From NCBI GenBank assembly GCA_943327105.2, contig CALPVV020000013.1, positions 1 to 36,294 of the forward strand: a stretch of DNA of 36,294 nt, given 5' to 3'. Both the position numbers and the translations under genes were made by a program. Each line of letters begins with the position of its first letter. The first letter of the stretch is position 1. The notes under the pieces are model-generated. The model was not told the origin of the DNA. It worked only from the letters and a program-made list of their open reading frames with translations, and did not search any database. Below are positions 11,539 to 19,316 of the stretch, piece after piece. Origin of the DNA: Nitrosovibrio sp. Nv4 (GTDB lineage: Bacteria > Bdellovibrionota > UBA1018 > CAIMNF01).

Positions 11539-11972
11539 TGTTGCTCCTTATCGGTATCTTCATTCGCCGATTTGCCAGCGATGGTCAGATTCACATACTC
11601 AGGCACCAACTTGCCCTTTTCATCTTTTTCATATTCTACGACTTTGACCGTATCACCTGAAATCGCGACCACACGTCCATCACGCACACCGAGCTTATCG
11701 CCTACTTTAATGAAAAATGTTTTTGAATTCGGGAGCGTAATCATCGCCTTTGGTGACTTCACACCCGCAATCAAACCATTTAAAGCCATTTCAGAAACCG
11801 AAAATGATTCCAGTTCAGGCTTTTTTGATGCCTCTACCATTTTTTGCGCACTCTCACTGGCCCGAAACGGGTCACGCAATGATTTGATCTCTTCTTCGGT
11901 CAACATTGATTCAATGGGTGATTGTGCCTGAGCAGGCTGCAATCCTAATGCTGCTAGAATCAGAAGCATCAT
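11535..11972 (-). CDS. pilP: Type IV pilus inner-membrane/periplasmic protein PilP
   Basis: PilP links the PilNO inner-membrane complex to the N0 domain of PilQ. The protein has 145 residues. The N-terminus is a signal peptide (MMLLILAALGLQPAQAQ) with no lipobox cysteine, unlike the lipoprotein PilP of many species. A helical linker follows that includes the typical LRDPFRASES segment (about 33-42). The C-terminal small beta-domain (about 60-135) has the family pattern LNGLIAGVKSPKAMITLPN and KVGDKLGVRDGRVVAI. It overlaps pilO (ATGA) and pilQ (ATGA) by 4 nt each. Position and domain layout make the call secure. Confidence 0.92.
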   Translation of the reverse strand: MMLLILAALGLQPAQAQSPIESMLTEEEIKSLRDPFRASESAQKMVEASKKPELESFSVSEMALNGLIAGVKSPKAMITLPNSKTFFIKVGDKLGVRDGRVVAISGDTVKVVEYEKDEKGKLVPEYVNLTIAGKSANEDTDKEQQ

Positions 11973-12571
11973 TTGAATGCTCCTGCCATCGTGTCTTCTT
12001 TACTGTTGGTATATCGATAGGCCTTGATTGAAAAAATCCCGCTTAATTTCTGACTCGAAACAGAAGTTGAATTTGAATTGGCAGTCAACTCAACTTCGTT
12101 GACTCGCATCAGGCGTTGCATTTGTGCGATTCTTTGTAAAAACAGAAGCATCTTCGTGTAATCACCGTTCAGCTTCATCTTGAATTCCTGCTCAACGTAA
12201 AATTCCTTCAACGACTGAGATACCGGTTCAATTTTTTCAAGCTTCAAATCAACCCGTTTTGCCTCAGTCAACAACAACTTCATCAAGCTTGGAACATCGA
12301 TGCGTTCTGAGAACATCGACTCATACTCGAACATCTTTTTGACTTTTTTGCGTAAATCTTCCTTATTCGTGTCGAGTGATTTTTCAAACTCTTTGGCCTC
12401 GACCACTTTTTTCTTCAAACTAGTAATTTCATTTTTGAGTGTATCGATCTTAATTTTGTGCGTCTCTACAGCTCCATCGGATGAAAACTCGAACTGATAA
12501 GCCTGAACTCCAAGCCATCCCAGATAAATGATAAAAAGCAGGAAAAATGGAATGTTTTTTAACTTCTCCAT
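11969..12571 (-). CDS. pilO: Type IV pilus alignment-complex protein PilO
   Basis: PilO dimerises with PilN in the inner membrane and periplasm. The 200-residue protein has a short cytoplasmic end, one membrane helix (about 7-25, PFFLLFIIYLGWLGVQAY) and a coiled coil (about 38-85, rich in Lys and Glu). A ferredoxin-like periplasmic domain follows, with FKMKLNGDYTKMLLFLQRIA near 135-155, the usual PilO core. Start and pilN stop share one base (TAATG) and the site AGGAGG lies inside the end of pilN, so coupling is strong. Length and order are as in other pilMNOPQ operons. Confidence 0.93.
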   Translation of the reverse strand: MEKLKNIPFFLLFIIYLGWLGVQAYQFEFSSDGAVETHKIKIDTLKNEITSLKKKVVEAKEFEKSLDTNKEDLRKKVKKMFEYESMFSERIDVPSLMKLLLTEAKRVDLKLEKIEPVSQSLKEFYVEQEFKMKLNGDYTKMLLFLQRIAQMQRLMRVNEVELTANSNSTSVSSQKLSGIFSIKAYRYTNSKEDTMAGAFK

Positions 12572-13170
12572 TAATTCCTCCTCGCTGTCAGATCAAAAGC
12601 CGCTTGCTGAGAGTTTTGTTCAATGCTGGTTCCCTTCAACACGACATCTTTGAAGATCTGACTCGTAGTCATTTTTTCCATCACTTCGCTCACAAGACCG
12701 ATATCGAAAGACTTACCGCTGATTTCATAGTCAACATCTTTGATATTCACTTTAGTCAACCAGACATCTTTTGGGCATGACCGGGCTAAGGCCACCAATG
12801 ACTTCAAGGTGGCGTCTTTACCCTTTAACAAATCATCGAAGGCAGAAACCTTGGCACTGAAAAAATTCATCATGCCGACCAATTCAGCTTTCTTTGCCTC
12901 AAAACCGCTGAATCTTGACAACTCAGCGGATATTTTATTTTTTTCACTCTCAAGAACCACGGTTTCCTTGTTCAGTTCTTCGTTTTTGAACTCAACATAA
13001 TAGTCAAAACCGAAGTTTGCTCCCAATGCGAGCAATACCGGTAAAAGCACTCTTGGAAACAATGAAGTCAACAACTCTGAACTAGAAGCACCAGAGAGCA
13101 TGCTTTTACCTGCAGATGCTGATTCGGCGTAAGTCGCTTGTTTTTTCAAAGCAAGATTGATTTTGATCAT
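12571..13170 (-). CDS. pilN: Type IV pilus alignment-complex protein PilN
   Basis: PilN anchors the cytoplasmic ring protein PilM through its N-terminal tail. The tail begins MIKINLALKK, a variant of the conserved INLLP peptide that docks in a PilM groove. A membrane segment spans about 37-57 (LFPRVLLPVLLALGANFGFD), followed by a coiled coil (about 60-100). A ferredoxin-like domain covers about 105-185 and contains the CPKDVWLTKVNIKDVDYEIS strand-turn region typical of PilN. The protein has 199 residues. It overlaps pilM by 4 nt and has a GGGAGC ribosome site. The extra 20-25 residues between the PilM-docking tail and the membrane helix (Ser/Ala-rich) are slightly longer than usual. Confidence 0.93.
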   Translation of the reverse strand: MIKINLALKKQATYAESASAGKSMLSGASSSELLTSLFPRVLLPVLLALGANFGFDYYVEFKNEELNKETVVLESEKNKISAELSRFSGFEAKKAELVGMMNFFSAKVSAFDDLLKGKDATLKSLVALARSCPKDVWLTKVNIKDVDYEISGKSFDIGLVSEVMEKMTTSQIFKDVVLKGTSIEQNSQQAAFDLTARRN

Positions 13171-14270
13171 GCGCCAGCTCCCGCTCTCAAAGCCAATCCC
13201 ATGGGAACCACGACTTCTGGAGAAAACGATGAAGCATCGCCTTGAAAGTTTTTGATTTTAACTTCAACCAGCTTGAATGGATTTAAATAATCACAGGGCA
13301 TCGTGGTCATCGCATTCACCGTGGTAAGCAACATTTCCACACGAGAACCCCCGCCGGAAAAAAAGATCTTTGAAACCGGAGGCCCAAGCGATGAAGCACT
13401 GTAAAAATCAATCGCTTTCTTGATTTCAGAAGCAAGACTCTGACTTGTTCTACTCAAAACATCCCTGACTTCTTGTGGGAGATTAGATGAAACCTTGAGT
13501 GCTTCTGCATCTTGCGGGCGAGCAAGATTCAATTCGCGTTGAATCTCTTGGGTGACGTAATTACCCCCAAACGGAGTATCCTTGGTGAAATACGGAATCC
13601 CACCTGCACATACAATCATCTTGCTGCTGACCGCACCGACATCGACAAGCAATACCGATTCGGTTTTAGAAACTTCATAGTTCGCTTCATAAACATTCTG
13701 AAGCGCGAACAATTCGGCATCCATGATTTTTGGAACCAACTTCGCATCAGTAATCAGTGACATGTATTGCTCAAGAAAATCTTTTTTCACTGCAACCAGA
13801 ATCACTTCGACCTGATCTCCGCGAGATTCACCGATCACCTGAAAATCAATCACCACTTCACTGATGTCGTAAGGAATGTATTGCTCAGCTTCCCAGAAGA
13901 CTTGCTCTTGAAGTTCTTTGATGTTGCTGACAGAAACAGTTAAATTTTTGATGATCAAACCGCTGCCCGCAAGTGCTGAGCAGACATTTTTCGACTTGAT
14001 TCCAGCTTCTTTATGGGCTGTTTGAATCAAGGAAACCATTTGTGCCGGGTTCAATACTTCACGAAGTTCGGTGAGCTGTTCAGGCAGTGGCATGGAAGAG
14101 AAGGCAACCAGCTGCCATAATCTGTTTTTTCTCTTCAATTCCACTATCTTGATACTGGAAGCACCAATCGAAAGACCAACAGCAGAGTCGCCGCCTAACA
14201 ATGAAAAAATTGTTCCGGATCGAAGTAAATCGAAAAAACCGCCAAATGCCCTTCCTTGAGCTGATGCCAT
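13167..14270 (-). CDS. pilM: Type IV pilus actin-like ATPase PilM
   Basis: PilM is a cytoplasmic actin/FtsA-like ATPase that forms a ring beneath the PilNO complex. The 367 residues include the phosphate-1 strand AVGLSIGASSIKIVELK (about 30-46), the characteristic PilM segment EAEQYIPYDISEVVIDF (about 126-142), the phosphate-2 strand VLLVDVGAVSSKMIV (about 206-220), the TPFGGNYVTQEI region (about 234-245) and the adenosine motif IFFSGGGSRVEML (about 304-316). It starts 38 nt after the unknown gene and has no clear ribosome site. The gap contains a 5-bp hairpin (293-308 of the 14-kb line) that might be a processing site. The call is firm. Confidence 0.95.
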   Translation of the reverse strand: MASAQGRAFGGFFDLLRSGTIFSLLGGDSAVGLSIGASSIKIVELKRKNRLWQLVAFSSMPLPEQLTELREVLNPAQMVSLIQTAHKEAGIKSKNVCSALAGSGLIIKNLTVSVSNIKELQEQVFWEAEQYIPYDISEVVIDFQVIGESRGDQVEVILVAVKKDFLEQYMSLITDAKLVPKIMDAELFALQNVYEANYEVSKTESVLLVDVGAVSSKMIVCAGGIPYFTKDTPFGGNYVTQEIQRELNLARPQDAEALKVSSNLPQEVRDVLSRTSQSLASEIKKAIDFYSASSLGPPVSKIFFSGGGSRVEMLLTTVNAMTTMPCDYLNPFKLVEVKIKNFQGDASSFSPEVVVPMGLALRAGAGA

Positions 14271-14308: not shown

Positions 14309-14896
14309 CTAATTTATTGAAATTCTTGCAGTAGCTGACTCAACTTCGACATACGATGCGCGATCGAGCTTCGATTCCGCCAAATCCTTGACGGGCAATA
14401 CAACGAACACTTTCTTCATTTTTGACTGAGCTAACCCGCTCACCGGATCAAAACAGAGATGATCTACCACAAGGTTCAACTTCATTTTTTTTGCCTCTTC
14501 AACAGGCAAAATTGAAAGCTGTTCTTCTACATCACGCCAATTTTTAACATGTAGTTTTTCAGTTTGAACAGGTACTGAGACTGCGGCTGAAGCAGCCTCA
14601 CAATCCGTCACCGCTTCAATTTGTAATTCACCATTTGCTAGCAAACTCATTTTTAACGGTTTTTTAAGTTGAATTGATTCCGTTTTAAGCTTTTCTATCT
14701 CAACGGCAATTCTTCTTGCGGCCTCAAGACTTTGCCATTTGAGCAGTCGCTCTTGATAAACCGGAATTCCGCTTAAAAACAAGAACAGCACCAACGCCAA
14801 GGAAACCAAGATGCGCTTACGGCGACGTTCGCGAATGACGATTTTCTCATGCAACTCGCCTTCCAGGAAATTTCGATCGTCTAAACGTTCATCCAT
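14309..14896 (-). CDS. Unknown single-pass membrane protein inside the pil operon
   Basis: I do not recognise this 195-residue protein. It starts with a charged cytoplasmic tail (MDERLDDRNFLEGELHEKIVIRE), followed by four or five Arg/Lys residues and one membrane helix (about 28-45, ILVSLALVLFLFLSGIPVY). A short coiled coil covers about 48-75. The periplasmic part has two cysteines (TDCEAA near 99 and HLCFDP near 148) and is predicted to be mixed alpha/beta. The layout of tail, helix, coiled coil and small domain resembles PilN and PilO in outline, but there is no INLLP tail. The start has a good GAGGT ribosome site and lies inside the end of pilD (16-nt overlap). The gene sits where M. xanthus goes straight from pilD to pilM. 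A role as an extra alignment-complex subunit is my inference. Confidence 0.75.
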   Translation of the reverse strand: MDERLDDRNFLEGELHEKIVIRERRRKRILVSLALVLFLFLSGIPVYQERLLKWQSLEAARRIAVEIEKLKTESIQLKKPLKMSLLANGELQIEAVTDCEAASAAVSVPVQTEKLHVKNWRDVEEQLSILPVEEAKKMKLNLVVDHLCFDPVSGLAQSKMKKVFVVLPVKDLAESKLDRASYVEVESATARISIN

Positions 14897-15648
14897 TTTG
14901 ATACCTCGTATAACATTTCAATCAATGCGCCCACCACCAGAAATGGCCCATAAGGGATTGAAGTTTTCAGTAATTCACTATTTTTTTGCAGTCGACCAAC
15001 GATAACTCCAACCAGTACGCCGAGCAAGGAACTGATCATCAGACTCGACCAAATTCCGCCAAATCCGGTGAAGACGCCGATGGTGCCCATGAACTTGATG
15101 TCACCACCACCCAAACCCACTCTGCCCGTCATTTTCTCGTATGCAGTCGCAAACAGAAAGAACACGCCAAAACCAACAAAAGAAGCCAAAGCTAGATGAC
15201 CAAATCCGTTTCGAAAATCCCAGTAGGCGGTTAACAGGCCAACAGCCCAACCACCCAGACTCAGCTCATCAGGAATGATGCGATGATCTAGATCGATGAA
15301 AGTAATCGCCACCCCGATAGCTATGAAAAACCAAATTCTGAATTGGGCGATATCAATCGACCCTCGAAAGGCGATTAAAAACAAAACGGCCGTAATGAAT
15401 TCAACCATCGGATATCGCCAGTGGATTTTGGCTCCACAATCAGCGCATTTTCCACGCAAAAACAAGTAACTCAAAAGAGGCACATTGTGCTGCCAACGAA
15501 CAGCATTGCCACAAGAAGGACAATGGCTGCCAGGCCTGACGATTGATTGTTCCAAAGGCAATCGATGTATGACCACATTTAAAAAACTGCCAATCACCAA
15601 ACCAAATAGCGCTATCATTATCGTCATCATCATCGGTGGCATCATCAT
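14881..15648 (-). CDS. pilD: Prepilin peptidase / N-methyltransferase PilD
   Basis: PilD cuts the leader from prepilins and methylates the new N-terminal residue. The 255-residue inner-membrane protein has the N-terminal SFLNVVIHRLP motif (about 21-31). Two zinc CxxC pairs (Cys43/46 and Cys68/71) lie in the methylase domain. The two aspartate motifs of the peptidase are FIDLDHRIIPDEL (about 117-129) and GLGGGDIKFMG (about 178-188). There are about seven membrane helices. The start overlaps the pilI stop (ATGA). The N-terminus has two runs of three methionines, so the exact initiating codon could be any of several ATGs. Confidence 0.95.
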   Translation of the reverse strand: MMMPPMMMTIMIALFGLVIGSFLNVVIHRLPLEQSIVRPGSHCPSCGNAVRWQHNVPLLSYLFLRGKCADCGAKIHWRYPMVEFITAVLFLIAFRGSIDIAQFRIWFFIAIGVAITFIDLDHRIIPDELSLGGWAVGLLTAYWDFRNGFGHLALASFVGFGVFFLFATAYEKMTGRVGLGGGDIKFMGTIGVFTGFGGIWSSLMISSLLGVLVGVIVGRLQKNSELLKTSIPYGPFLVVGALIEMLYEVSKWMNV

Positions 15649-16373
15649 AAGTTCTTTCTTGAGAATACTGCATTACCGATCAGAGTAAAAAAGAAAACCC
15701 AGACCCCACCAAATAGCAGGCCATTTAAAAACAGAGCTACAGAAAGTGATTCTTCATAATAGATGCGGTCGCCCATGAGTAGCGCACTGAAATTAGGGGT
15801 GAGAACAGTCAACACACCCACGCCCGACTGCATGGAAGCTATCAGAGCATGATTATGACCCAAAAACACCATGGCAGTCATGATCATGAATACCAGTGCT
15901 GGCCTGAACCAAAATCCAAACAAGATGCTCGCCGCCAACAAAATCAACGATTCAAGATAGGTCAGAAAAAACGATTGTAAAAATGCCACTGACAAGTCAC
16001 CTAACGCAAGAGTGACCGCAAGCCATAACACCAGCGATAAAATCGTATAGTTCAACAACAGAAAAAGTGCCATGCCAGCAAATCGGGAAAAATAGAATTC
16101 AGTTCGCGAGATGGGACGCACCAAAAAAAGGTAGATCGTTTTTGTTTCGATTTCTTGCCTGAAAAACCGGGCTCCGACACTGATTGCAACCAGAAACACG
16201 GAGATGGCATTCACCATCACGCCGATATCGAGCATCACCCGGTGTTGAAAACCAAATACCAATTGCGATGCAAGGTAGCCAATAAACAAGAATAAAACAG
16301 TCACTCCAAAAACATTGTAAATGATCTTTTCCCGAAGCAGCGAACGGAACGTATGAAGAATGATTGCCTTCAC
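15645..16373 (-). CDS. pilI: ABC-2 type permease, PilI-like
   Basis: This inner-membrane permease of about 242 residues has six predicted helices and the ABC-2 pattern, including an amphipathic coupling-helix segment (EIETKTIYLFLVRPISR) before helix 3. I favour the GTG at 16373. GGAGGG lies 5 nt upstream, and this start gives a 4-nt GTGA overlap with pilH, the same style as other junctions here. An ATG at 16385 without a ribosome site would add four residues. In M. xanthus the pilG-pilH-pilI genes sit between pilA and pilD and are needed for pili. The identical position here supports naming it pilI. The transported substrate is not known. Confidence 0.82.
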   Translation of the reverse strand: MKAIILHTFRSLLREKIIYNVFGVTVLFLFIGYLASQLVFGFQHRVMLDIGVMVNAISVFLVAISVGARFFRQEIETKTIYLFLVRPISRTEFYFSRFAGMALFLLLNYTILSLVLWLAVTLALGDLSVAFLQSFFLTYLESLILLAASILFGFWFRPALVFMIMTAMVFLGHNHALIASMQSGVGVLTVLTPNFSALLMGDRIYYEESLSVALFLNGLLFGGVWVFFFTLIGNAVFSRKNL

Positions 16374-16993
16374 GACGCCCTCCATTCAGCGGTTGGGCCA
16401 AAAAACTTCTGTTTGCCATGATCAAGAACCAGCACCAAGTCAGCAAGTGCGGCAACATCTTCCATCACGTGCGAGGTGAATACTAATGCCACGCCCTGAT
16501 CACGAAGAGCCTGAAGGTGATTCATGAGTTCTTTTCTTGATTCTGGGTCAAGTCCACTCATCGGCTCATCCAGAAAAATCAATTTAGGCGAGCCCAACAT
16601 CGCCTGAGCAAGCATTGCCTTTTGCAACATCCCTTTTGAATAGTGTTTGAATTTTTTATCGAGCTCGTTTTGAAGCCCAACCAGTTCGGCAACACGGTTC
16701 ATTTCAGCGCTCAACCCAGTCTTTGGAAAACTAATCAGGTTCAAATGCATTTTCAAAAAATCACGAAATCGCTCATCCATTTCAAGATAAGGGCGTTCGG
16801 GAACATAACCAAAGTTTGATTCATGAATTGAAAATCGCCCGTTTGAAGCAAATTTAAGTCCAAGTAGCACATGAAAAAGTGTCGTTTTACCTGCACCATT
16901 ATGACCAACCACTGCTAGCGTTTTGCTTTCTGGCAATTGAAAAGAAATCTGATTCAAAATGTGTATAAACGATAGGTTTTCAGCTTCGATCAT
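16370..16993 (-). CDS. pilH: ABC transporter ATP-binding protein, PilH-like
   Basis: This 207-residue nucleotide-binding subunit has Walker A GHNGAGKTT (about 30-38), a Q-loop region near 62-67, a signature helix YSKGMLQK (about 118-125), Walker B LIFLDEPMSGLDPE (about 138-151) and the H-loop TSHVME. The signature reads YSKGM rather than LSGGQ, a form common in ABC-2 exporters such as the CcmA and NatA types. It overlaps pilG by 4 nt (ATGA) and pilI by 4 nt. Gene order matches M. xanthus pilH, which is required for pilus formation. Family assignment is sure; the role in pilin or pilus export rests on synteny. Confidence 0.87.
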   Translation of the reverse strand: MIEAENLSFIHILNQISFQLPESKTLAVVGHNGAGKTTLFHVLLGLKFASNGRFSIHESNFGYVPERPYLEMDERFRDFLKMHLNLISFPKTGLSAEMNRVAELVGLQNELDKKFKHYSKGMLQKAMLAQAMLGSPKLIFLDEPMSGLDPESRKELMNHLQALRDQGVALVFTSHVMEDVAALADLVLVLDHGKQKFFGPTAEWRAS

Positions 16994-17679
16994 AAGTTAT
17001 CCAATTTCTTCTGATACTCTACTTTCAGTTTTTCATTTTTGGTCTGACGGATCATCATGGTGAGCACTTTTTTGCCAAGTTTTTTTTCAGCACCGTCTTC
17101 TTGCAACCAGATTTTCATGTTCTGCAGATATGATGGCGCTCCGGGCAGTTCGCTTGCCCGTAGGTATTGTTCTTTTGCTTTTGACCAATCGTTTTTTTCA
17201 AAAGAATAGTAATAAGCCAAAATCAAATAAAGTAGATGCGGATGCTCCCAGTGTGCATTTGTATTTTTAATCCCTTTTTCCAGAAAGTAGATCGCCTCAT
17301 CGGGTGAATGATACAAAAACCCGAACATCGTCGAAGCTTGCAGATAGAGTTCATGAAACCGAGGGTCAAGATCGGTTGCCAGTTCGTAAAAACCAAACAC
17401 AGAGGGCTTAAACTCAATCGGATGGTTTTTGGAGCCAATAATTTGTAGCGTCTGAATCCAAAACCAATCTACCGCTGCAGGCCAATAACCCATCATGACA
17501 AACTTAAAAAACTTCGCCGAATATGGTTTAGGCTTAGGGTCTACAAATGCGGGTGCAACCGGCAAGTGCGATTGAATCAAAAATAGAATGGGGCACAATA
17601 AACCAGCGAACCAAAAGGCGCCAATCGGTCGACGCCTGAAATTCAACTGAATAAATTTAAAAAAATTACTCGACCCCAT
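16990..17679 (-). CDS. pilG: PilG-like membrane protein with TPR-like region
   Basis: The protein has about 229 residues from the ATG at 17679. A TTG at 17685 is also possible. It has a basic cytoplasmic end, one membrane helix (about 19-35, AFWFAGLLCPILFLIQSHL), then a periplasmic part with an unusual aromatic stretch (KFVMMGYWPAAVDWFWIQTL). TPR-like helices with ELYLQASTMFGFLYHSPDEA and LILAYYYSFEKNDWSKAKEQ follow. It heads the pilG-pilH-pilI-pilD set, in the place held by pilG in M. xanthus, where it is thought to work with the PilHI ABC exporter. No ribosome site is visible and the candidate promoter is very close, so initiation may be leaderless. The name rests on position and topology, not on a distinctive motif. 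Confidence 0.75.
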   Translation of the reverse strand: MGSSNFFKFIQLNFRRRPIGAFWFAGLLCPILFLIQSHLPVAPAFVDPKPKPYSAKFFKFVMMGYWPAAVDWFWIQTLQIIGSKNHPIEFKPSVFGFYELATDLDPRFHELYLQASTMFGFLYHSPDEAIYFLEKGIKNTNAHWEHPHLLYLILAYYYSFEKNDWSKAKEQYLRASELPGAPSYLQNMKIWLQEDGAEKKLGKKVLTMMIRQTKNEKLKVEYQKKLDNL

Positions 17680-17697
17680 TTTCAACTACTGTACAAT
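17670..17697 (+). promoter_or_regulatory. Candidate sigma-70 promoter for pilA
   Basis: TCGACC (17670-17675) and TACAAT (17692-17697) are 16 bp apart. Transcription would start near 17704, giving a leader of about 26 nt that contains the AGGGGAG ribosome site (17712-17718). I found no GG-N10-GC pair of sigma-54 type in the 130 nt upstream of pilA, although pilA genes elsewhere usually depend on sigma-54 and PilR. Confidence 0.42.
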
Positions 17698-17729: not shown

Positions 17730-18296
17730 ATGAAACTGTTAAAAAACAACAAGTCTGGTTTTACCTTGGTTGAATTGATGGTGGTCGTGGCGATCATCGG
17801 TATTCTTGCAACGATTGCAATTCCTCAGTACAGCAAATTTCAATCAAAAGCACGTCAGTCAGAAGCGAAAGTGGTTCTCACTGGTATGCACACTACACTT
17901 CAATCTTTTGCTTCCGAGAATGGAACTTTTACCGGTTGCTTGGCAAATATTGGTTTTGCCATCAGCGGTAACAAAAGTTTTTACACCACCGGCTTCTCAG
18001 TAGCTGGTGCAAGCAGCGGAACTTCTTGTAGAGCGAATGGTGCGGGTGTATCTTGTACTGCCATTACGGGTCTTGCAGCAGGTGTTTGCACACCTGGTGC
18101 GGGTGTAAGCCATTTCGCATCAAACATGGGTGGTGGCCCAATTACGATACCTGCATCTTTTCTCGGAGGTTCTGCAACTGCAGTTTCAACTACAAACTTT
18201 ACAGTAGGTGCAGTTGGCCGTATCGGCGGTTCACTTGATGATCAATGGACAATCACTGATTCTAAAACATTGCTCAACGTACAAGTTGGGATTTAA
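17730..18296 (+). CDS. pilA: Major type IVa pilin PilA
   Basis: This 188-residue prepilin has a 10-residue basic leader ending in Gly and the class IVa cleavage site [17 protein letters not shown], with the conserved Glu at mature position 5. After the long N-terminal helix comes a globular part rich in Gly, Ala, Ser and Thr, with four cysteines (CLAN, SCRA, SCTA and VCTP) that could form two disulphides. The C-terminus [18 protein letters not shown] is typical of pilins from deltaproteobacteria. It is the only pil gene on the plus strand, lies divergent to pilG and ends at a strong terminator, so it forms a single-gene transcript as expected for an abundant subunit. PilD would process it and PilB and PilT would drive its assembly and retraction. 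Confidence 0.96.
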
Positions 18297-18368: not shown

Positions 18369-19316
18369 TCACTGGCCCAGAAGCTTTTTGGCCGCCTCTT
18401 CGTCATTCTTGGTATAAAGCATGGCTTCGCGTTTATAAAAAGCACGCACTTCTTGAAGTACTTTTTCAAGATCAACCGGCCCCATAATGAAATTCGCTCT
18501 TAGGGTCAATTCGCGTGGAATGCCCGCTGCTTTTCTCGCCGAAGCAACCATTTCGGGTGGCAGGGTGTTCACCTGTATTTCATCGCTTGCTTCCAAGGTC
18601 ACTACCCGCTCAATCACATTTTCAAGCTCGCGAATATTACCCGGCCAACGATGATGAAGCATGACTTCCATCGCAGCCGGAGCAAACCCTTTGATTGATC
18701 GCTTTTGCTTTTCGTTGAACTTTTTCAGGAACACTTCAATCAAAAGATCGATATCACCTACACGTTCACGCAGTGGTGGTGTTTCAAGCATGATCACATT
18801 CAGGCGGTAATAAAGGTCTTCTCGGAAGGTTCCTTTTTTTGCGCCTTCTTCCAGATTCTTGTTCGTTGCGGCCACAATGCGCACATCGATTTTGATCGTG
18901 TCATTTGCTCCGACCCGTCTGATTGCGCGGTCTTGAAGTGCTCTTAATAATTTAACCTGCATCGAAAGTGGCAATTCACCGATTTCATCCAAGAACAATG
19001 TGCCACCATTTGCAGCCTCAAAAAGACCAGGCTTATCGACATGAGCACCGGTAAAACTACCCTTTTTATGCCCAAATAACTCACTTTCAATCAGGGTTTC
19101 AGGAATCGCTCCGCAATTGACCGCAATGAATGGTCCATCCGCCACCGGGCTGAGTTCATGCAGCGCTCGCGCCACCAGTTCCTTACCCGTACCGCTTTCG
19201 CCGATAATCAGTATGTTCGTTTTTGAAGGTGCCACCCGGACGATCATCTTCTTCAATGCTTCAACCGATTGAGATTGCCCGAAGATCGGGCGCTTGATTT
19301 CGTTAATGTCTTTCAT
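18369..19316 (-). CDS. pilR: PilR-like sigma-54 activator core lacking receiver domain and complete HTH
   Basis: This 315-residue AAA+ protein of the bacterial enhancer-binding family starts almost at once with the ATPase domain ([15 protein letters not shown], about 11-25). It has Walker A GESGTGKE (39-46), the sigma-54 contact loop as GSFTGA (86-91, usual form GAFTGA), Walker B GGTLFLDE (104-111) and [16 protein letters not shown] near 225. There is no N-terminal receiver domain, and none is possible because the start shares a base with the pilC stop (TAATG). The C-terminus stops at [11 protein letters not shown], after helix 1 of the Fis-type helix-turn-helix, so the recognition helix is missing. 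Neither other frame downstream restores it. It lies where pilR lies in M. xanthus, but pilS is absent. It may act on sigma-54 without binding DNA, or be a decaying gene. The name is by position and homology. Confidence 0.82.

Follow-up and report, generated by a model that had tools for sequence, protein, structure and literature searches.

Gene X, on the reverse strand at positions 14309–14896 of the window (the whole stretch of DNA analysed here, 36,294 nucleotides), encodes a pilin-like membrane protein of 195 residues that lacks a prepilin-peptidase site; the assignment combines its open reading frame, profile comparisons and an AlphaFold2 model with the FimU/GspH fold. Computation establishes that X is conserved, that it is linked to the prepilin peptidase gene pilD, that its predicted fold is that of a pilin, and that the cutting motif is absent. 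We consider it probable that X is a GspH/FimU-type descendant that the peptidase no longer processes and that acts as a fixed, pilin-shaped base subunit in the inner membrane.

Gene X and its product

The coding sequence of X begins at an ATG that follows a GAGG ribosome site after 7 bases, and it shares 16 bp with pilD (14881–15648, reverse strand; PF06750, E 3.8e-36; PF01478, E 1.2e-14), in keeping with the first-pass annotation of this DNA, which had noted both the overlap and a good ribosome site. Upstream of the ATG the reading frame is open for 7 codons only and holds no leader-like motif. X is clearly a real gene. Upstream of X on the same strand lie pilD and, beyond it, the genes for an ABC-2 type permease at the pilI position (15645–16385; PF12730 at 3.1e-5, under the cut-off; recovered by tblastn at 37 of 48 loci), an ABC ATPase at the pilH position (16370–16993; PF00005, 8.3e-22) and a protein at the pilG position (16990–17685) that has no Pfam match and is possibly TPR-like by eye. 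The position names follow a gene order that we take to be that of Myxococcus-type clusters. pilGHI are reported as members of such pilus clusters (PMC6060248). Downstream of X lie pilM (13167–14270; PF11104, 2.6e-60), pilN (12571–13170; PF05137, 4e-11) and pilO (11969–12571; PF04350, 9.7e-17), all on the reverse strand, and then pilP and pilQ; the divergent pilA (17730–18296, forward strand; PF07963, 5.2e-10), named by position and motif, encodes the class III major pilin of the locus. We also note that the sigma-54 activator gene beside pilC, at the PilR position (18369–19316, reverse strand), encodes only 315 residues; the AAA domain begins already at residue 11, so that a receiver domain could not fit ahead of it, and there is no DNA-binding domain among its Pfam matches at E≤0.01.

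Alignment and model together divide X into three parts. Residues 1–28 (14813–14896) form a charged, helical cytoplasmic tail with nine Lys/Arg and eight Asp/Glu residues and a motif of the type W...EL(W/Y)EK, represented in the window by F10, E14, L15 and E17. Residues 29–48 (14753–14812) are the membrane part of helix α1 and include P45, the counterpart of Pro22 in pilins. Residues 49–195 (14312–14752) comprise the periplasmic remainder of α1, which runs to residue 77, and a β-rich head of the GspH/FimU type containing C99 and C148. These are the only two cysteines in the protein, and both are invariant in all 46 aligned homologues, which would suit a disulphide bond between them in the periplasm. 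Conservation of at least 90% is found at E14, L15, E17, P45, W54, D150, G154, D171 and R179, and also at the alignment position of residue 10, where almost every sequence has Trp and the window protein has Phe. Over the 46 homologues, the segment ending 17 residues ahead of the proline has a mean length of 34 residues, with eight basic and eight acidic.

Much of the anatomy proposed in the first-pass annotation survives this comparison. X is, as it had held, an unrecognised membrane protein; it is conserved, unnamed, tied to the type IV pilus (T4P) locus and apparently bitopic in the inner membrane, a topology judged from charge; there is a single hydrophobic stretch at about residues 29–48 followed by a soluble domain, in agreement with the one membrane helix and the two-cysteine periplasmic domain that it had described. 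The cytoplasmic tail is charged as claimed, but at 28 residues it is moderate and not long, and the supposed coiled coil is in the model a section of an unbroken helix spanning residues 7–77.

Distribution and gene neighbourhood

The genome carrying the locus is 2.31 Mb in 137 contigs and 92% complete. A search with the single X sequence (E≤0.001) finds one copy, free of internal stops, in 48 of 97 genomes including its own, and within the order in 48 of 55. A profile built from 46 sequences extends this to 54 of 290 genomes of the phylum, comprising 49 of the 55 in the order, all three others listed in the class, and two members of a more distant family, f9; a second profile detects X in three of the four genomes in the order to which one f9 genome (G058) belongs, all three of them in f9. 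In four of the six genomes of the order missed by the 46-sequence profile pilD itself is undetectable (G021, G023, G044, G052), and in the other two (G049, G053) it runs off the end of a contig. Such conservation is far beyond chance, at identities to the window protein that range from 19 to 60% across the homologue alignment. That alignment, A1, was built from 46 of the 48 homologues, one locus close to another (L039, near L038) and one cut by a contig end (L044) being left out; a second, A4, has 34 members, of which 28 are among the 46 of A1 and six are distant. Public records of relatives, covering 30 loci, are all metagenome-assembled, and among their labels are Bdellovibrionales, Oligoflexia, Bacteriovoracaceae, Bdellovibrionota, Bdellovibrio sp., Bacteriovorax stolpii and Deltaproteobacteria. 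No relatives of X were found in the viral collection that was searched.

In all 48 loci fetched from the order X lies directly after pilD on the same strand, so the position is kept in relatives, a check that the first-pass annotation had proposed. With start codons picked by script, the two frames overlap in 45 of the 48, by 28 bp in 31 loci, by 16 bp in 12, and by 22 bp and 4 bp once each. The next gene after X is pilM in 44 of the 48; in three others the sequence runs out no more than 548 bases beyond X, and in one a different gene follows. In that last locus (L048, from G014 in family f3) the gene in place of pilM appears to encode an ATPase, with a P-loop recognised by eye.

The position between pilD and pilM, together with a bitopic plan like that of PilN and PilO, favours a reading that builds on the first-pass annotation, in which X is an additional subunit of the PilN/PilO kind in the alignment complex, with its tail touching the PilM ring. 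However, three families (f7, f8 and f9) keep X right behind pilD and have their PilM matches on separate contigs, in assemblies that are fragmentary. The constant partner of X is therefore PilD and not PilM, and we dropped an earlier description of X as always standing beside pilM. With the profile and fold comparisons given below, membership of the alignment complex seems improbable.

Among 27 pilD loci from class and phylum members, an X relative is next in six (one of which, G056, was read from L080 since its own stretch is truncated), 14 have pilM immediately afterwards, and the remaining seven have another gene or no legible one there. These pilM and pilD surveys cover 28 class and phylum genomes chosen by us among those listed, with our own genome outside the sample, and in 27 of the 28 there is a single PF06750 match. 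One prepilin peptidase match in each of these genomes suggests that T4P and the type II secretion system (T2SS) share the enzyme.

Because PilD is its constant neighbour, the strongest rival to a base subunit is a reading in which X acts as a partner of PilD or regulates it, for example as a non-cleavable pseudo-substrate or a chaperone of prepilins, possibly on behalf of T4P and T2SS alike. The overlapping frames, which suggest coupled translation, the single peptidase match per genome, and the presence of T2SS pseudopilins in the genome carrying X all speak for it; against it, PilD manages alone at the 21 of 27 class and phylum pilD loci where X is not the next gene. We regard this reading as unlikely, though less so than the other rivals, and it overlaps with that of a base subunit such that both can hold.

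Predicted fold and related families

The structure prediction and profile searches that the first-pass annotation had suggested as checks both point to pilins, the former more strongly. The AlphaFold2 model of X, made from the alignment, has a mean pLDDT of 90.3 and a pTM of 0.77, and in the model the long helix and β-rich domain have the "lollipop" shape of a type IV pilin. In a Foldseek search of the PDB all five matches at E≤0.001 are FimU chains (2.7e-5 to 1.1e-4), and EpsH, GspH and XcpH come next. VIA-align Z-scores are 12.1 for FimU (rmsd 2.7 Å over 122 residues), 11.4 for XcpH (5.4 Å over 136 residues), 10.6 for EpsH, 8.3 for GspH and 7.1 for FimT, and the next unrelated row scores 4.2. 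In the alignment with FimU the first pair joins residue 46 of the model to residue 23 of FimU. A second model, of the f9 relative L083, has a pLDDT of 91.9 and gives Z-scores of 11.3 for XcpH, 11.2 for EpsH and 11.0 for FimU, with 3.8 for the next unrelated row; its best Foldseek E-value is 0.012. L083 is only 9–19% identical to rows outside f9, and the two models are not independent, as 28 X-family rows stand in the alignment used for L083. Both predicted models combine a long α1 with a β-rich head of the GspH/FimU subtype. PilN, PilO and archaellin (ArlF/ArlG) folds are unlisted in the Foldseek and VIA results for X, an absence that excludes nothing.

Sequence profiles point the same way, at modest strength. 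Against eight profiles from its own lineage, hhalign pairs X best with a cleaned GspH profile (E 0.0016, probability 16%), followed by PilO (0.039), PilA (0.12), GspJ (0.27), PilP (0.35), PilN (0.38), GspI (0.39) and GspG (0.42). Earlier versions of the GspH, GspG and PilA profiles shared members through their common N-terminus; the cleaned versions have 10, 10 and 20 rows respectively, one row in each duplicating the query, and cleaning moved the E-values from 8.5e-4 to 0.0016 for GspH, from 0.024 to 0.42 for GspG, and from 0.028 to 0.12 for PilA. GspH thus stays the best, if weak, profile partner of X, and the alignment with it pairs P45 with the Pro22 position of GspH. Kinship with PilN and PilO, to whose plan that of X had been likened earlier, is consequently not supported: the E-values for PilN and PilO are poorer than that for GspH, and the predicted fold is that of FimU/GspH. 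PF05137 and PF04350 match neither the window protein nor the 46 A1 members, although they do match the window's own PilN and PilO.

The f9 proteins match X profiles at E 2e-8, and none of the eight own-lineage profiles matches them significantly (best PilA 0.015 and GspH 0.029, obtained with the earlier mixed profiles and an f9 alignment of three rows, one of them partial). Two of the three f9 members have weak matches to the Pfam GspH family (PF12019; E 0.0042 and 0.023, or 18.0 and 15.6 bits against a cut-off of 21), and NCBIfam ComGD is the commonest match in A4, again weak (4 of 34 members, best 0.0055). Neither Pfam nor NCBIfam yields a GspH match for the window protein, and PF12019 at E≤1 finds none of the 46 A1 members and, in a census, none of 58 relatives. 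The same model misses the prepilin at the GspH position of the T2SS in this very genome, and its census therefore says nothing about the absence of GspH. A search of known families gave nothing convincing, in Pfam for the window protein and the 46 A1 members or in NCBIfam for the window protein and the 34 of A4, and PDB sequence searches returned only a chance helix match. Two candidate families were set aside, DUF1361, a weak match over the membrane helix region (residues 21–59), and OppC_N, seen in 5 of 46 members with a best value of 0.019.

The genome carrying X has a T2SS cluster on another contig (L202, on C56, 753–5686). Pfam identifies GspG and GspJ in it and, weakly, GspK, while GspF, GspH, GspI and GspK are assigned from their positions. 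X could serve this system, given its pseudopilin cluster, and as a T2SS component would merely share the pilD operon; its head is about equally close to XcpH/EpsH and FimU. However, the T2SS cluster already has a separate, canonical class III prepilin at the GspH position, the X locus is a T4P cluster, and the f9 genome G058 (80% complete) has X together with just one PF07963 match. A component dedicated to the T2SS is the least probable of the readings considered here, and we think it very unlikely.

The prepilin-peptidase site and a proposed role of X

A prepilin-peptidase site is the defining feature of type IV pilins, a proline at mature position 22 is typical of them, and GspH, EpsH and XcpH are class III prepilins. 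In X the equivalent of Pro22 is P45, with the register taken from structure and from hhalign; it is a proline in 45 of 46 homologues and a threonine in one. Counting ungapped backward from this column, we find that position -1 is never Gly in the 46 homologues (three have Ala), position +5 is never Glu, and position +1 is Arg or Lys in 39. The class III signal, as described in two reports, consists of Gly at -1 and Glu at +5 (PMC4471445, PMC7541494). In none of the 46 does the sequence as far as Pro22 contain a class III-like motif. In the same genome PF07963 recovers PilA together with four class III prepilins encoded in the T2SS cluster, and because these canonical prepilins exist the loss of the motif is specific to X.

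The three f9 relatives (L083, L082 and L167) take this further. They start 18–19 residues before the proline, which corresponds to about mature position +3 or +4, use GTG, TTG and ATG starts, and overlap the pilD stop by a few bases. A stop codon immediately before the start of L083 closes its frame, and no leader is therefore possible there; the starts assigned to the other two are putative, being deduced from the overlap with the pilD stop. The f9 branch thus appears, on these three sequences, to be without a leader altogether.

These observations bear on whether X might be a working minor pilin, a substitute for FimU that is cut at an unusual site and enters the pilus or a tip complex. Its predicted fold is what such a protein would have, and PF07963, in a census of 11 genomes, finds in our genome (92% complete) no T4P minor-pilin cluster separate from PilA and the T2SS prepilins. 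On the other hand, the Gly/Glu site is missing from every homologue, +1 is mostly Arg or Lys, L083 starts at about +3 with a stop just ahead, and a charged helix of about 20–40 residues would need to be removed. We therefore doubt that X is an incorporated pilin, a little less strongly than we doubt that it belongs to the alignment complex; trimming by another peptidase, or by PilD at an atypical site, is possible. PilY1 (PF05567) was matched in none of 21 genomes, but the control genomes were equally without a match, so this census carries no weight.

Comparison with known proteins sharpens the picture. X resembles FimU, a type IVa minor pilin (PDB 4ipu, 4ipv), in predicted fold and helix register; unlike FimU it has neither a Gly/Phe cutting site nor Glu5, it carries a charged cytoplasmic tail, and its gene is fixed behind pilD outside any minor-pilin cluster. 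It is like GspH, EpsH and XcpH (PDB 2knq, 2qv8, 4dq9, 9a1f) in predicted fold, in its profile similarity within its own lineage and in the Pfam matches of the two f9 relatives, but it fails the class III signal that they bear, and the T2SS of its genome has its own GspH-position prepilin. FimT, the DNA-binding minor pilin of Legionella (PDB 7qyi), belongs to the same fold class, yet it is a weaker match than FimU, and X has no class III signal. PilN and PilO share with X a bitopic plan and a gene cluster, but their profiles are unrelated, and the solved structures that X matches best in fold are those of pilins.

That X descends from a pilin, stays uncut in the cell, sits at the platform and seeds or anchors the pilus are steps that we infer. 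The ancestor would have been a minor pilin or pseudopilin of the GspH/FimU type that lost its Gly(-1)/Glu(+5) site. The head would stand in the periplasm on a pilin helix that extends into the conserved, charged cytoplasmic tail, or, in the f9 variant, begins at about +3 or +4 without a leader. The tail would keep X in the membrane, and because of this anchor X would not be drawn into the filament. X would then most probably work close to PilD and PilC, on the platform of the inner membrane. There its tail could dock on a cytoplasmic component of the machine, and its head could offer contacts to PilA or minor pilins that start, hold or end the pilus, as a seed, an anchor or a retraction stop. 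In Myxococcus, PilY1 and the minor pilins are reported to make up a priming complex, which may in addition bring retraction to a halt (PMC7541494). A more specific version of the base-subunit reading, which we put forward tentatively and hold as somewhat less probable than its general form, is that a minor pilin was recruited as a permanent component of the inner membrane and a static base or stator for the filament, losing its site through a docking tail or a dropped leader while its gene stayed translationally coupled to that of a peptidase it no longer needs. The likelihoods attached to these several readings overlap and do not sum to one.

There is a precedent for such a change in archaea, by analogy only. 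ArlF and ArlG are described as duplications of the filament protein ArlB that make up a putative archaellum stator, ArlF being reported as secreted at full length and ArlG as trimmed by an unidentified protease (PMC8667602). The likeness to X would be one of logic, in that a subunit of the filament was converted to a fixed component of the machine. Theirs is an archaellin fold in an archaeal machine; X is predicted to have a GspH/FimU fold and fails the class III test. Fixed-word literature searches, mostly without subscription papers, returned no recognised description of X or of an uncleaved bacterial pilin of the GspH/FimU type.

The presence, next to the peptidase gene, of a conserved pilin homologue without a peptidase site suggests that a protein of the filament has become a fixed part of the machine. 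If so, X might be the bacterial counterpart of the pilin-derived archaellar stator, an analogy that is attractive and that we would still rate slightly below an even chance. How a pilus is seeded and stopped is, to our knowledge, an open question for type IV filaments, and X, if this reading is true, could reveal the first contacts of PilA at the platform and the way in which these steps occur. X also gives the pilus cluster of this uncultured lineage, publicly recorded under Bdellovibrionota and related labels, a further component that has no name yet.
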